Shown one piece after another: positions 8,071 through 23,216 of a stretch of DNA of 23,216 bases (positions within the stretch are counted from its first letter, which is position 1; every line of letters begins with the position of its first letter). The notes under the pieces are model-generated. The model saw only the letters and a list, made by a program, of their open reading frames with translations. It was not told the origin of the DNA and did no database searches. The position numbers and the translations under genes were made by a program. The DNA is from a virus. The stretch is taken from IMG/VR virus record IMGVR_UViG_3300025012_000288, positions 1-23,216 of that record. The stretch is one strand, 5' to 3'.

Positions 8071-8084
8071 ATTCATATCCGAAT
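8071..8084. promoter_or_regulatory. Class A palindrome next to the RBS of the FmdB-like gene
   Basis: ATTCATATCCGAAT, with one arm mismatch, is followed directly by AGGAG, the ribosome site of the gene at 8099. It mirrors the arrangement in the divergent late leader. Confidence 0.55.
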
Positions 8085-8935: not shown

Positions 8936-8959
8936 GCAGAATCATTTAGGAATCCAGTT

Positions 8960-8980
8960 CAATAATTGCAAGACTATTGC
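8960..8980 (+). repeat. ATTGC site pair 1 (candidate Int/Xis arm sites)
   Basis: CAATAATTGC (8960-8969) and AGACTATTGC (8971-8980) are repeated 11 bp apart in the same orientation. Two further pairs with the same spacing flank the tRNA-Gln fragment. This pair lies just before the ribosome site of the excisionase-like gene. Confidence 0.5.
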
Positions 8981-8996: not shown

Positions 8997-9350
8997 GTGC
9001 AGACCCAAGCCATTTCTACAGACCCAGCAGCATTACTCGGGCTTCTCCAGGCCCAAGCCGAAGTCCATGCAGCGACATTAAAAATTCTCCAAGCGGCCAT
9101 CGAAGCACTGAGTCCTAATAAGACAGAGCCTCTCCTGATCGGCCTGAAGCAAGCCTCTTTGAAAATCAACAAGTCCGACAGGTGGCTGAAGGGAAAGCTG
9201 GAACTTGGCGAACTTACAGGCTGGAAGAGTGGGCCGAAGGGCAGGTGGCAGATCGACCCCTCCATCCTCCTAGACGAAATCAAGGCGCTTCATCAGCAAT
9301 CCAGACAAGATCCGCAGCCGAAAAAAAGACGAAAAAGAATGTTGACTTGA
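8997..9350 (+). CDS. Excisionase-like DNA-binding protein
   Basis: Protein of 117 residues with a GTG start, AGGAGG 10 nt upstream. The C-terminal half, GLKQASLKINKSDRWLKGKL followed by GWKSGPKGRWQIDP, looks like a winged helix-turn-helix of the MerR/excisionase type; the tail is basic (PKKRRKR). Residues 1-45 are Ala/Gln/Leu-rich and helical, perhaps for dimerisation. Position next to the candidate attP and upstream of the integrase supports an Xis role; a repressor is the alternative. Confidence 0.55.
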   Translation: MQTQAISTDPAALLGLLQAQAEVHAATLKILQAAIEALSPNKTEPLLIGLKQASLKINKSDRWLKGKLELGELTGWKSGPKGRWQIDPSILLDEIKALHQQSRQDPQPKKRRKRMLT

Positions 9351-9421
9351 ATTTCAAAATGACCTATCTTGCGGTCCACCTGACGCGAGACAGGGCATTT
9401 TCTTTAGCAGCACTCCGGATT

Positions 9422-9442
9422 CAAAAATTGACAGACTATTGC
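9422..9442 (+). repeat. ATTGC site pair 2
   Basis: CAAAAATTGA (9422-9431) and AGACTATTGC (9433-9442) are 11 bp apart, repeating pair 1. The second half is identical to the one at 8971-8980. The pair overlaps the -35 of the promoter before the tRNA fragment. Confidence 0.5.
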
Positions 9443-9457
9443 TAAGGAAAATAAAAT
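9428..9457 (+). promoter_or_regulatory. Promoter in front of the tRNA-Gln half
   Basis: TTGACA (9428-9433), an 18-nt spacer and TAAAAT (9452-9457) predict a start near 9464, about 12 nt before the first base of the tRNA-Gln fragment. It would supply expression to the tRNA rebuilt after integration. Confidence 0.6.
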
Positions 9458-9475
9458 CGCGTAAGTAGTTGAAAT

Positions 9476-9514
9476 TGGGGTGTCGCCAAGCGGTAAGGCA
9501 ACGGACTCTGACTC
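9476..9514 (+). other. Candidate attP core: 5' half of tRNA-Gln(CTG)
   Basis: Bases 9476-9514 read as tRNA-Gln from position 1 to about 40: acceptor 5' strand TGGGGTG, D-arm GCCAAGCGGTAAGGC and anticodon loop CTCTGAC with anticodon CTG. After 9514 the anticodon stem is not completed (ACA where CGT is needed), and no T-arm or CACCCCA acceptor strand follows. A half tRNA beside a tyrosine integrase is the usual signature of an attachment site, with crossover near the anticodon loop. Phage genes lie on both sides, so it looks like attP rather than a chromosomal junction. Confidence 0.75.
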
Positions 9515-9524
9515 ACAAGTGAAT
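9511..9524. promoter_or_regulatory. Weak class A palindrome at the tRNA breakpoint
   Basis: ACTCACAAGTGAAT matches nine of ten arm bases of the class A element and overlaps the point where tRNA identity ends. Confidence 0.3.
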
Positions 9525-9571
9525 TATTTGTTTGGGTCGAATTATACAATAGAATCGGCTAGTTAGTAAGA

Positions 9572-9600
9572 GGCTCTCCAATTCAGGGAGGGCCTTTCCT
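9572..9600 (+). terminator. Terminator-like hairpin after attP core
   Basis: GGCTCTCC (9572-9579) pairs with GGAGGGCC (9587-9594) with one wobble, loop of seven bases, extended by A/T pairs and followed by TTTCCT. It would stop transcription entering from the tRNA promoter before the integrase. Confidence 0.55.
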
Positions 9601-9614
9601 ATATCCAGACAAAA

Positions 9615-9765
9615 GCCTCAAATCACGCAACTACCTAATCCATAAAGACTTCCTTAACTCATATCCTACATTTAAAATCACGTCTGAATTCGTAACTCAC
9701 TAATACATAATATAAATTTACCTAAATCACTTACTTAGCCTCAATCGGGAAGAGTCGGGAAATTT
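9615..9765. other. AT-rich P-arm segment without a gene
   Basis: No open frame with a ribosome site is seen. The stretch holds loosely repeated ACT-NAC-TAA-type words (9629-9638, 9694-9704, 9728-9738) and one weak class A palindrome (AATCACGTCTGAAT, 9676-9689). Its place between the attP core and the integrase suits integrase or host-factor binding, which remains inference. Confidence 0.35.
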
Positions 9766-9786
9766 CAATTATTGCTCAAATATTGC
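9766..9786 (+). repeat. ATTGC site pair 3
   Basis: CAATTATTGC (9766-9775) and CAAATATTGC (9777-9786), again 11 bp apart, sit 11 bp before the -35 of the integrase promoter. Confidence 0.5.
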
Positions 9787-9796
9787 AGCGAAGGGC

Positions 9797-9825
9797 TTGA
9801 CTTCCATTCACGTCTGAATTATATT
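9797..9825 (+). promoter_or_regulatory. Integrase promoter with operator in its spacer
   Basis: TTGACT (9797-9802), a 17-nt spacer and TATATT (9820-9825). The last 14 bases of the spacer are the class A palindrome ATTCACGTCTGAAT (9806-9819), abutting the -10. A protein bound there would block RNA polymerase directly. Confidence 0.8.
9806..9819. promoter_or_regulatory. Class A operator in the integrase promoter
   Basis: ATTCACGTCTGAAT occupies exactly the 3' 14 bp of the 17-nt promoter spacer, the same geometry as in the radical SAM operon promoter. Confidence 0.75.
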
Positions 9826-9845: not shown

Positions 9846-11084
9846 ATGCGAGAAAAAGGTTCGATTTTCAAGGTGGTCCGCTGCTACGAGTGTGGGGCCA
9901 GGAAGCGATTCACTGATCCTCCCAAGAAGCTCCCTCCGTGCAAGAAGTGCGGGAGCGCCACAAACGAGGCGGATAAATTCTGGAGCATCTCCTACTCCTT
10001 CGAGGGGAAGCAGATAGCGGAACAGATCAGCATCCACAAGAAACAAGCCGAGGACCGGCTGAACCAAGTCCTGGGTCAGATCGTAGACGACCGCTTCAAG
10101 CTGAACCAGAAGAAGGAGCGGCTGACCTGGGATCGAGCTGCAGAGCTTTACAAGACCTACCTCGAAGGCCTCTCCAACTCCGACACGCGAGCCTTCTACA
10201 TCCAACGCCTCGACTCCAACCTGACTCCCTTCTTCCGAGAGTTCTCCTGGAAAACGGGCACACCATTACCACGCCAGTTATCAGACCGGCTCCCAGTTTT
10301 CATCCAGGACCTCCTCCCTCAGCACCTCCAAGCCTACATGGTCTACTGCCGGGACGATCTGGGTCACTCAAACTCTACTGTGAACCGAGCCAGGACGACC
10401 CTCATCAACATGATCAACTGCTTCGTGAAATCCAAGATCGTAGCTCCTGATAATACTCGGTACCTCGAATATAATCAGCTTCAGGTGGTCCCTGCTTGGC
10501 CCGAGAACGATTCCAGGGAGGATAAATTTTATACGGTGGGGGAATTGAATCGACTATTCGAGGCTGCGGAGCTGGTGGACAAGAGGGCTTCGCTGATAAT
10601 TGGCTTCGGCGCGTTCGGTGGGCTCAGGAGGAAAACCATCTGCTCATTAAAAAAGGAGTACCTGAACCTCCAGGAAAATCTCGTATCCATCCCAGCATCC
10701 AAGAGGAAGCAGGGTGATTACACGCATTATCTGGACATGATCCCGAAGCTTAGGAGCCTGTTGGATTCCTATCTAGAGGGGCTGACTCCTAAAGAGCAGG
10801 AAAGCCTTTGGCTCTTCTGCGGCGAGACTCCGGAAGTGCCCATCTCCAGATCCTATTGGGACAACATTTTCCAGAAGGTCAAAAAGGAAGCTGGGCTGAA
10901 AGACAAGCGCTTCCACGACACCAAGCACTCAGCCGGAACCTTCTACTATCAAGCTACGCAGGACATTAGGAAGACCGCAGATTTCCTCGACCACAGCGAC
11001 ATCAACATGTCGAGGAAATATGCGTTCGTAGATAGGGAGCAAAAGAGGAAGGATGCTGATAAATTTGGGGAGCAATTTGAATAA
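9846..11084 (+). CDS. int: Tyrosine-family phage integrase
   Basis: Protein of 412 residues. An N-terminal zinc ribbon (C13, C16, C32, C35) precedes a SAM-like core-binding domain (about 95-200) and the catalytic domain (about 225-405). Visible active-site residues are R261 (GGLRRKT), K286/K288, H357, H383 (FLDHSDI) and nucleophile Y392 (RKYAFVD). The box II arginine (HxxR) is replaced by K360 in FHDTKHSAGT. It would recombine the adjacent attP with a host tRNA-Gln gene. AAGGAGG lies 7 nt before the ATG, and a class A operator sits in its promoter. Confidence 0.94.
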   Translation: MREKGSIFKVVRCYECGARKRFTDPPKKLPPCKKCGSATNEADKFWSISYSFEGKQIAEQISIHKKQAEDRLNQVLGQIVDDRFKLNQKKERLTWDRAAELYKTYLEGLSNSDTRAFYIQRLDSNLTPFFREFSWKTGTPLPRQLSDRLPVFIQDLLPQHLQAYMVYCRDDLGHSNSTVNRARTTLINMINCFVKSKIVAPDNTRYLEYNQLQVVPAWPENDSREDKFYTVGELNRLFEAAELVDKRASLIIGFGAFGGLRRKTICSLKKEYLNLQENLVSIPASKRKQGDYTHYLDMIPKLRSLLDSYLEGLTPKEQESLWLFCGETPEVPISRSYWDNIFQKVKKEAGLKDKRFHDTKHSAGTFYYQATQDIRKTADFLDHSDINMSRKYAFVDREQKRKDADKFGEQFE

Positions 11085-16122: not shown

Positions 16123-16592
16123 CACACCTCCTTCTCCACCACAACCTCGTTCTTCAGCAAATCAACTGTGTTCCGGAAGGCTCGCTCCAGTAATTCCGGA
16201 GGCAACTCCAAATCATAAACACTCCCGCTCCGAGCCATCCCTGCCATGACACAATCGACGATGAATTCCAGTACGTCGATCAGATCAACGTCTTCAGGAA
16301 TACCATCTTCAGTCAGAAGGTGGTGCCTGGAGCACTTCTTGTGAGCATCCCACCAACTATGCTCACTAAAACCAGTCTGGAAGTCGGAGTGGAATTGGTC
16401 GAGGCAAGTAAGCTTGTCGAAGTCGTGCCACTTTGTGGCCTCGCCTAAGGCTCCCTGAATAAACTCGATGCCCTTCCCTACGTCCTCGATGTGCTGCACT
16501 GTGGAAGCGACCAAGATTTCCTTGGTCACCGTAGTCGGATCTCCGCAGGTCCGGGAATCTGCTGTCTTACTTTCTTTGATCATGATCGTCAA
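16122..16592 (-). CDS. HD-like phage protein
   Basis: Protein of 156 residues. VQHIEDVGKGIEF, TKWHDFDKL, SWWDAHKKCSRHHLL and DLIDVLEFIVDCVMAGMARS form a His/Asp-rich helical pattern that resembles small HD-domain phage proteins (DUF5662-like) of unknown activity; a metal-dependent phosphohydrolase is a fair guess. The start is taken as TTG at 16592 because AAGGAG is 6 nt upstream and it overlaps the previous stop (TTGA); ATG three codons later is the alternative. A class A palindrome lies just before the ribosome site. Confidence 0.68.
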   Translation of the reverse strand: MTIMIKESKTADSRTCGDPTTVTKEILVASTVQHIEDVGKGIEFIQGALGEATKWHDFDKLTCLDQFHSDFQTGFSEHSWWDAHKKCSRHHLLTEDGIPEDVDLIDVLEFIVDCVMAGMARSGSVYDLELPPELLERAFRNTVDLLKNEVVVEKEV

Positions 16593-17578
16593 AATGGTCT
16601 CCTTAATTCAGATGTGAATTTGTGTGGCAAAGTTCCAGACAAAATAGCGTTCCCACAGGTAATCCTCCTGGCGTCCTCATCATGACTCGCGATGAACGTC
16701 AGCACGTCGAAGCCAACCTTCTTCAGCTCCTCGGCGTGATGCTGGTACAGGTAAGGCGTGGTGTAGTCACCCAAGGTCTCGATCCCGTTCTCTAGAGCAA
16801 CCGCTGTCTTGTGCATCGGGGTCAGCTTGCAGATGAACCTGCGCGTATCGAAGAGGTCCCTCAGTTTCACCGCGTCGATCTCGTAATCCGCTACGGCGAA
16901 ATTCAGGGTGATCTTGCGGCCCTTGGGGAAGTCCAGCGCTGCTCCAAACTCGGCAACCTGCTCCAGCGACAAAGCATTTCCACCAAACATCTTCGCTCGC
17001 TCCTCGTTGCAAGTAGAGTTCGCCGAAATCTGGAGCCCCGCATCACCACGGAAATCGTAGTTCTTGATCTCCATCCACTCAGCCAGGAAGTGGGAAAGCT
17101 CTCGGTTGTGCCTAGGCATCATCGTGGAGATCACCGGGTGGACCAGAGATCTCCCAACAAAAGGCCTGACTTCCAAGCGGATGTTCCGGGCAAAATCCAA
17201 GACGTTCGAATTCCTATTAGGCTCGCCCATCCGAGCGAAGTGGACGTTCAAGCGCTTGGTAGCGTTGACCTCCAGGTGCAAGGCTAGTCCACCAAGAACC
17301 TGATCCCGGAGATCCTCGTAGGTGCAGTTTACTCCCGGACCAACCTTCGGTACGTCGCAGAATGTACAGCCCATCGAGCAGCCATACTGAGTCGAGATTG
17401 TAATGACCCACTTCTCGGACAGTGGTAGGAGCGGGGTTTCATCAGCAACTGCCTTGTTCTGATTCAGGTTCACGTCCTTGCCGTAATCAGCAATGGACAG
17501 AAATTCAAGCGGACCTTTGGACCCTTCACCCACCAAAATATTACCAGTGGGCACCCGCAGGTTCTGCGTTAGCTTCAT
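16589..17578 (-). CDS. RlmN/Cfr-like radical SAM protein
   Basis: Protein of 329 residues. The iron-sulphur motif is C67-x3-C71-x2-C74 (QYGCSMGCTFCDVPKVG). RlmN-type landmarks follow: FARMGEPNRNSNV, HPVISTMMPR, LQISANSTCNEERAKMF, ICKLTPMHKT and C308 in RRITCGNAI, equivalent to the methyl-carrying Cys355 of RlmN. The position of RlmN Cys118, seven before the first cluster cysteine, is T60. RlmN and Cfr methylate adenine carbons in RNA; the target of this phage form is unknown. It heads the accessory operon, with GAGGAGG before its ATG. Confidence 0.85.
   Translation of the reverse strand: MKLTQNLRVPTGNILVGEGSKGPLEFLSIADYGKDVNLNQNKAVADETPLLPLSEKWVITISTQYGCSMGCTFCDVPKVGPGVNCTYEDLRDQVLGGLALHLEVNATKRLNVHFARMGEPNRNSNVLDFARNIRLEVRPFVGRSLVHPVISTMMPRHNRELSHFLAEWMEIKNYDFRGDAGLQISANSTCNEERAKMFGGNALSLEQVAEFGAALDFPKGRKITLNFAVADYEIDAVKLRDLFDTRRFICKLTPMHKTAVALENGIETLGDYTTPYLYQHHAEELKKVGFDVLTFIASHDEDARRITCGNAILSGTLPHKFTSELRRPF
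16606..16619. promoter_or_regulatory. Class A palindrome inside the operon, before an RBS
   Basis: ATTCAGATGTGAAT lies in the 3' end of the radical SAM gene, immediately followed on the minus strand by AAGGAG, the ribosome site of the HD-like gene. No promoter elements are visible around it. Confidence 0.6.
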
Positions 17579-22650: not shown

Positions 22651-23216
22651 ATGTGCGAATTCTTTAGTTGTATCTCGAACGGCCAAGGCAGTATCTGGTA
22701 CTTTAACTGGGAACTCAGAAAAAAGTGCCTTTCGGGTGAGCTTGACTATTCCCCGGACTCCCACTCGTCCATAGCCGATTACTTCGGCTTCGAGGGAGAC
22801 AAAGAAGATCGGATGAACAAATACGAATTCAACCCTCTGACTGGAAAATTCACCATCGACCAGATCAATGGAAAGGACGATTCCGAAGTTGTGGAGAGAA
22901 AACTCCGGAAGCTCGATTTTATGACGATTGTGCCTTCTTTGAGGATTAAGGAGATTTATCATCCGTTTAGGCAGGTTCCTGTCGCTCCCGAAGTGACGCC
23001 GGAGATGATTGAATTGCTCCAAAGGTGGGCCTCGGTGTGGGCCTCGGTGCGGGCCTCGGTGCGGGCCTCGGTGCGGGACTCGGTGCGGGCCTCGGTGCGG
23101 GACTCGGTGCGGGACTCGGTGTGGGACTCGGTGTGGGCTTACACAGCCTCGTTTTTCCCTGAAATAACCGAATGGAAATACGTGGAAAAACTAGGTCCTA
23201 ACCCCTGGGAGCCCTG
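22651..23216 (+). CDS. Partial gene with (R/W)(A/D)SV tetrapeptide repeats
   Basis: ATG at 22651 has AAGGAG upstream and the frame stays open to the window end (188 codons). Residues 1-125 start MCEFFSCISNGQGSIWYFNW and look like a compact N-terminal domain with no recognised family. From residue 126 nine consecutive tetrapeptides follow (WASV, RASV, RDSV, WDSV types), coded by a 12-bp tandem repeat, and then a normal sequence (AYTASFFPEITEWKYVEKL). Similar SV-tetrapeptide runs occur in other phage proteins of unknown role. The 3' end is cut by the window. Confidence 0.78.
   Translation, partial: MCEFFSCISNGQGSIWYFNWELRKKCLSGELDYSPDSHSSIADYFGFEGDKEDRMNKYEFNPLTGKFTIDQINGKDDSEVVERKLRKLDFMTIVPSLRIKEIYHPFRQVPVAPEVTPEMIELLQRWASVWASVRASVRASVRDSVRASVRDSVRDSVWDSVWAYTASFFPEITEWKYVEKLGPNPWEP
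23026..23133 (+). repeat. 12-bp tandem coding repeat, nine copies
   Basis: Nine in-frame units of the form (T/C)GG-G(C/A)C-TCG-GTG. Variation is limited to the first base of the unit and the A/D codon, so the repeat is young or homogenised and could change copy number by slippage without shifting frame. Confidence 0.85.

Follow-up and report, generated by a model that had tools for sequence, protein, structure and literature searches.

A probable phage attachment site carrying the 5′ half of tRNA-Gln(CTG) behind candidate phage promoters and across an operator-like palindrome

The DNA analysed here (the window) is the linear IMG/VR record IMGVR_UViG_3300025012_000288, 23,216 nucleotides long. 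The region of interest is intergenic and bordered by phage genes: to the left are genes for capsid, protease, portal, terminase and HNH proteins, and to the right is an integrase gene (int) followed by phage genes without known function. The product of int is a tyrosine integrase of 412 aa (9846–11084, plus strand; PF00589, E 6.6e-20; phrog_1, E 2.6e-34). Its N-terminal domain carries a zinc-ribbon-like CxxC...CxxC insertion (residues 13–35), and HDTK replaces the usual HxxR motif, as it does in a 49%-identical protein from the genome G181 (see below). The last ORF before the intergenic region (8997–9350, plus strand) encodes 117 aa without a family match and is a possible candidate for an excisionase or regulator. 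Further right, at 16589–17578, is a radical-SAM-like phage protein of unknown function (phrog_24834, E 4.5e-106).

Within the intergenic region, on the plus strand at 9476–9514, lies the sequence TGGGGTGTCGCCAAGCGGTAAGGCAACGGACTCTGACTC, identical at 39 of 39 nt to tRNA-Gln(CTG) in several Geobacter-type genomes. A preliminary description of this DNA had recognised the segment as the 5′ half of that tRNA, approximately positions 1–40, and the match bears this out: it comprises the 5′ strand of the acceptor stem, the D arm, the 5′ strand of the anticodon stem, the loop CTCTGAC and two further nucleotides. Identity to the host tRNA-Gln ends at 9515, that is, two bases beyond the anticodon loop, and the integrase gene follows 331 bp downstream. 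No complete tRNA was detected in the window by ARAGORN or Rfam, as expected given that only half is carried. The core was also searched against host tRNA-Gln genes: a 38-nt pattern allowing both loop variants (see below) matched 34 of the 277 Desulfuromonadia genomes, once in each, and had no match when read in reverse, which excludes chance. Each matching genome has its tRNA-Gln(CTG) gene in single copy. Because the pattern is also present in Clostridia and other groups, the sequence by itself cannot identify the host. At one other locus (L162 1300–1700; G150 C140) the first 47 nt of tRNA-Gln(CTG), together with its promoter, are joined directly to tRNA-Glu; a deletion, an assembly error and the relic of an excised element are suggested alternatives for this fusion.

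Five related viral records encode integrases 90–96% identical to that of the window and all five contain the same region, each with one copy of the tRNA half and none with a complete tRNA-Gln. Both ends of one of them, the 102.7-kb relative G003, match the window (near 19.3 and 23.0 kb); since these positions are only 3.7 kb apart, the genome closes around the intact region, to a size that we put at about 106 kb. One end of G003 falls inside a ∼12-nt tandem repeat (gcctcggtgcgg) at 23027–23140 and is probably an assembly break. That a relative closes to ∼106 kb, and that phage genes lie on either side of a tRNA half present in all relatives, identifies the region as attP, in agreement with the preliminary description; the flanking phage genes rule out the alternative that the window is the end of a prophage. 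The region also has the anatomy of the anticodon-loop class of tRNA attachment sites, with a terminal tRNA fragment that ends at the loop and a tyrosine integrase gene adjacent to it, and the polarity is 5′-restoring: the element carries the tRNA from position 1 to the anticodon loop. Neither an alignment-based search nor a separate search with the G181 integrase returned further close viral relatives, and in a phage collection the integrase had only distant matches (<30% identity).

Between the two phage lineages 36 of the 39 positions of the tRNA half are invariant. The three changes (T1 to A, C32 to T and C38 to T) are all known from host tRNA-Gln genes: A1 occurs with U72 in L073, L175 and L177, and the loop TTCTGAT occurs in L161. 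Among the host genes compared, none had A1 and TTCTGAT in exact combination.

The target of the integrase is suggested by its one full-length relative, the 49%-identical protein of G181, a member of the Desulfuromonadia; no other was found in the Geobacter-type genomes searched (integrases and junctions were sought in 13 genomes chosen by locus, in 13 from the family, in 277 from the class and in 395 drawn from the phylum). In G181 a complete tRNA-Gln(CTG) immediately precedes the integrase gene, and ∼4.3 kb further on is a displaced 44-nt copy of the 3′ part of the tRNA, beginning with the first anticodon-loop base. The preliminary description had named tRNA-Gln(CTG) as the target, and here a relative of the phage integrase has indeed integrated into that gene, and at the corresponding loop. 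Given that the G181 repeat starts, and the phage identity block ends, around CTCTGAC (9506–9512, plus strand), this loop is likely to be the 7-bp overlap within which the strands cross over. Phage and G181 element also agree in the orientation of the tRNA relative to int. They differ in polarity: integration of the G181 element leaves the tRNA with a restored 3′ half, as is usual, whereas the phage carries the 5′ half, so that both polarities occur within one integrase family. Together these comparisons support the anticodon loop of tRNA-Gln(CTG) as the predicted target of the phage. Desulfuromonadia are the probable host, an assignment short of proof because, of the Desulfuromonadia searched, G181 alone has such an integrase. 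The 4.3-kb element itself (G181 C2; L137 9018–13373) has two ORFs in addition to the integrase gene: one, of 388 aa, is coiled-coil-like, and the other, of 376 aa, resembles by eye a TIR-like or nucleotide-binding domain in its C-terminal half. Judged in the same way, the element is possibly a defence island.

An integrated copy of the window phage was not among the genomes searched: attL and attR junctions were absent from the Desulfuromonadia and phylum genome sets and from the viral records, and an exact search of viral contigs with the phage leader and the adjoining tRNA half as query returned only attP forms. This could be taken to mean that the fragment is no attachment site but a relic, or else a tRNA half expressed as a decoy or for some other role. 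However, the fragment ends at the classical anticodon-loop crossover, every relative retains it, with variants of host type, and the relative of the neighbouring integrase integrates at precisely the same loop of tRNA-Gln. We regard a relic or decoy as highly improbable.

If the segment is the attachment site, recombination within CTCTGAC would yield two products. In the first, phage promoter, phage 5′ half and host 3′ half would form a complete tRNA-Gln; in the second, host promoter and host 5′ half would be followed by phage sequence leading toward int. The expected attR would thus read GTTGAAAT[T/A]GGGGTG...GACTC joined to CCGTC, and the expected attL would be the host tRNA-Gln 5′ half joined to ACAA[G/A]TGAATTATTTG. 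Joined in silico, every combination tested of phage 5′ half and host 3′ half was called tRNA-Gln(ctg) by ARAGORN, and the reciprocal joints of host 5′ half and phage right side gave no tRNA-Gln call. The proposal that integration cuts the tRNA from its own promoter and rebuilds it behind phage sequence therefore follows from the anatomy of the site, although no junction was found.

What would then drive the rebuilt tRNA? Two promoter candidates precede it on the plus strand. The first, P2, is the TTGACA-N18-TAAAAT of the preliminary description and is present exactly as described (9428–9457): TTGACA at 9428–9433, an 18-nt spacer and TAAAAT at 9452–9457, matching the consensus at 11 of 12 positions. 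The distance to the tRNA had been given as 12 nt; in fact 18 nt (9458–9475) separate the −10 box from base 1, and 12 nt is approximately the distance that separates an expected start site from base 1. Scored with sigma-70 hexamer frequencies, P2 reaches 14.0 in the window and in the relative L122, above the maximum (10.6) of 30 Desulfuromonadia tRNA-Gln upstream regions; when the 60 nt upstream were shuffled with dinucleotides preserved, one of 1000 trials attained the score of the promoter. P2 is weaker in L125 (9.4), and in L124 its score of 5.6 is poor and does not exceed that of shuffled sequence. The second candidate, P1 (TTGACT-N17-TATCTT, 9342–9370), is invariant at 27 of 29 positions in four phages; as TTGAC[T/A]-N17-TATCTT it scores 10.5–12.3 in all four, and the only feature downstream of it is the tRNA half. 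Its −10 box is overlapped by a terminator-like hairpin with a T-rich tail (9356–9402, plus strand) that follows the 117-aa ORF (z −3.8; z −4.7 in L124). This overlap and the low P2 score in L124 both count against transcription of the tRNA from the phage.

The −35 box of P2 also lies inside a 23-nt repeat. Repeat comparison located three plus-strand copies, kept in all relatives: 8958–8980, just before the ribosome-binding site of the 117-aa ORF; 9420–9442 (TTCAAttATTGCaaGACTATTGC), which includes the P2 −35 box; and 9764–9786, upstream of the int promoter. These repeats are probably arm-type integrase sites or regulator sites. They give weight to an alternative in which attP and its polarity are as described but the phage promoter is unimportant, there being weak read-through or none, with tRNA-Gln(TTG) reading CAG by wobble and TTGACA being simply part of the repeat. 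Consistent with this, the P2 −35 box reads TTGCAA in L124, and G181 has a second tRNA-Gln-like gene, 85% identical to the first. Against it stand the 11 of 12 consensus match of P2 and its score above all host tRNA-Gln promoters compared, the conservation of P1 in four of four phages with the tRNA half as its sole downstream feature, and the tRNA half itself, which has no damaging changes, its three variable positions being of host type. We consider an unimportant promoter unlikely, if by no means negligible, and a phage promoter, whether P1, P2 or both, the likely driver of the tRNA. Prophage control over the expression of a host tRNA, as proposed in the preliminary description, is accordingly to be read as a prediction from a promoter candidate whose −35 box is repeat sequence and which is altered in one lineage.

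The other side of the core holds a feature of a different kind. An operator-like palindrome, ACTCACAAGTGAAT, spans the end of the tRNA half (9511–9524), being made up of its last four bases and the next ten. The palindrome is one of a family: ATTCAnnnnTGAAT has nine exact copies in the window where 0.04 are expected, and a second count gave 12 sites of the palindrome where 0.08 are expected. Perfect copies of ATTCACATGTGAAT begin at 129, 2602, 7889, 7968, 9806, 13231, 16606, 17652 and 17682, and copies with one mismatch at 8071, 9676, 19137 and 21336. An 83-kb relative has 26 copies and a 103-kb relative 32, compared with two to five per whole 4–5 Mb host-type genome; over whole phage records the 14-mers are spaced ∼3 kb apart. 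They occur around other TTGACA boxes, next to ribosome-binding sites and, at 9806–9819, in the spacer of the int promoter (TTGACT-N17-TATATT, 9797–9825, plus strand), which is invariant at 29 of 29 positions. With copy numbers that by far exceed both the chance expectation and the density in host genomes, the palindrome has every mark of a dispersed phage operator of repressor type, to which a phage protein is predicted to bind. A repressor gene was not recognisable in two operator-cluster regions of the relatives, which contain replication genes instead. Many short regulator sites spread over a temperate phage genome are also known from the stoperators of mycobacteriophage cluster A (PMC9262239) and from phage P1 (PMC8546580), but their motifs are asymmetric; the phage studied here has a palindrome instead, with one copy spanning the core of attP. 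Membership of the cluster A stoperators was rejected on this ground; the asymmetric centre of the motif occurs in both orientations.

At the core the palindrome is perfect (ATTCACAAATGAAT) in L124 and L125, whereas in the window and L122 it has a mismatch in one arm, imposed by C38 of the tRNA. This mismatch, which counts against an operator at the core, and the position of the palindrome adjoining the crossover would suit a symmetric core element of the integrase in place of a repressor operator. Against such an element stands the 14-mer family itself, which is present genome-wide, in the int promoter spacer and beside ribosome-binding sites; the exact CAAA and CAAG variants of the palindrome also recur elsewhere in the relatives. 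We therefore think an integrase core element distinctly improbable and retain the operator as the preferred reading. After integration the host would supply the identical four bases, so that the palindrome would stay on the int side and be lost from the rebuilt tRNA. There, together with a terminator-like hairpin between core and int (9569–9597, plus strand; stem kept in relatives, sequence changed), it would separate the displaced host promoter from int, and we infer that the two may insulate int from that promoter in the lysogen; the short T run of the hairpin is a point against this. The palindrome at the core, the conserved P1 and this hairpin had all escaped the preliminary description.

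How do these arrangements compare with known systems? Restoration of the 5′ half of a tRNA is already known but rare. The preliminary description was right to call the polarity unusual, yet there are precedents and the phage is not unique: in Islander, 159 of 3919 mapped islands carry a 5′ tRNA fragment (PMC4383910). Those 5′-restoring islands share with the phage a tyrosine integrase, a tDNA target and a displaced 5′ fragment, and an anticodon-centred crossover is one of the site classes of Islander; the phage differs in that its attP is intact, has a promoter close to consensus and is overlapped at its core by an operator-like site. According to a review of archaeal elements, bacterial tRNAs keep their original promoter after integration with very few exceptions, and pTN3-type elements are such exceptions (PMC8371274). 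In the latter, attP and the 5′ half of tRNA-Leu have 41 bp in common, the anticodon among them, and the rebuilt tRNA is likewise parted from its own promoter (PMC8371274, PMC5495485). These elements are archaeal, however, with attP inside the integrase gene and a tRNA that is reportedly read from the integrase promoter, whereas here attP is intergenic, the promoter candidates are separate and the element is a bacterial tailed phage. Elements at the 5′ ends of dusA and prfC (PMC8409611) also supply a new promoter and the 5′ part of the host gene, but their targets are protein-coding. In the G181 element, which shares the tRNA-Gln(CTG) loop and the integrase family, the tRNA keeps its host promoter, unlike what is predicted for the phage. 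What is new here is the overlap of an attP core with a dispersed operator-like palindrome; a narrow literature search found no described case of a regulator site across an attP core.

Taken together, it is very likely that the region is the attP of a ∼106-kb temperate tailed phage whose integrase targets the anticodon loop of tRNA-Gln(CTG) and would rebuild the tRNA behind a phage promoter; integration itself, transcription from P2 and/or P1 and repressor binding are what we infer from the arrangement of the DNA. More tentatively, and with the balance somewhat against it, integration may amount to an exchange of promoter and operator, in which the site of strand exchange doubles as a switch between the integrated and the free state. 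The free phage would have the repressor site following its tRNA promoter; in the lysogen tRNA-Gln would be freed of the repressor, and the host promoter would be blocked from driving int.

Elements that target tRNAs mostly leave the tRNA under the host promoter, whereas this phage appears to take over the transcription of tRNA-Gln(CTG). With the phage and the G181 element as a pair, the evolutionary flip of the restored side, and its cost, become testable. Finally, an operator distributed over the whole phage genome overlaps the site of crossover, which suggests that integration and transcriptional control are directly linked.
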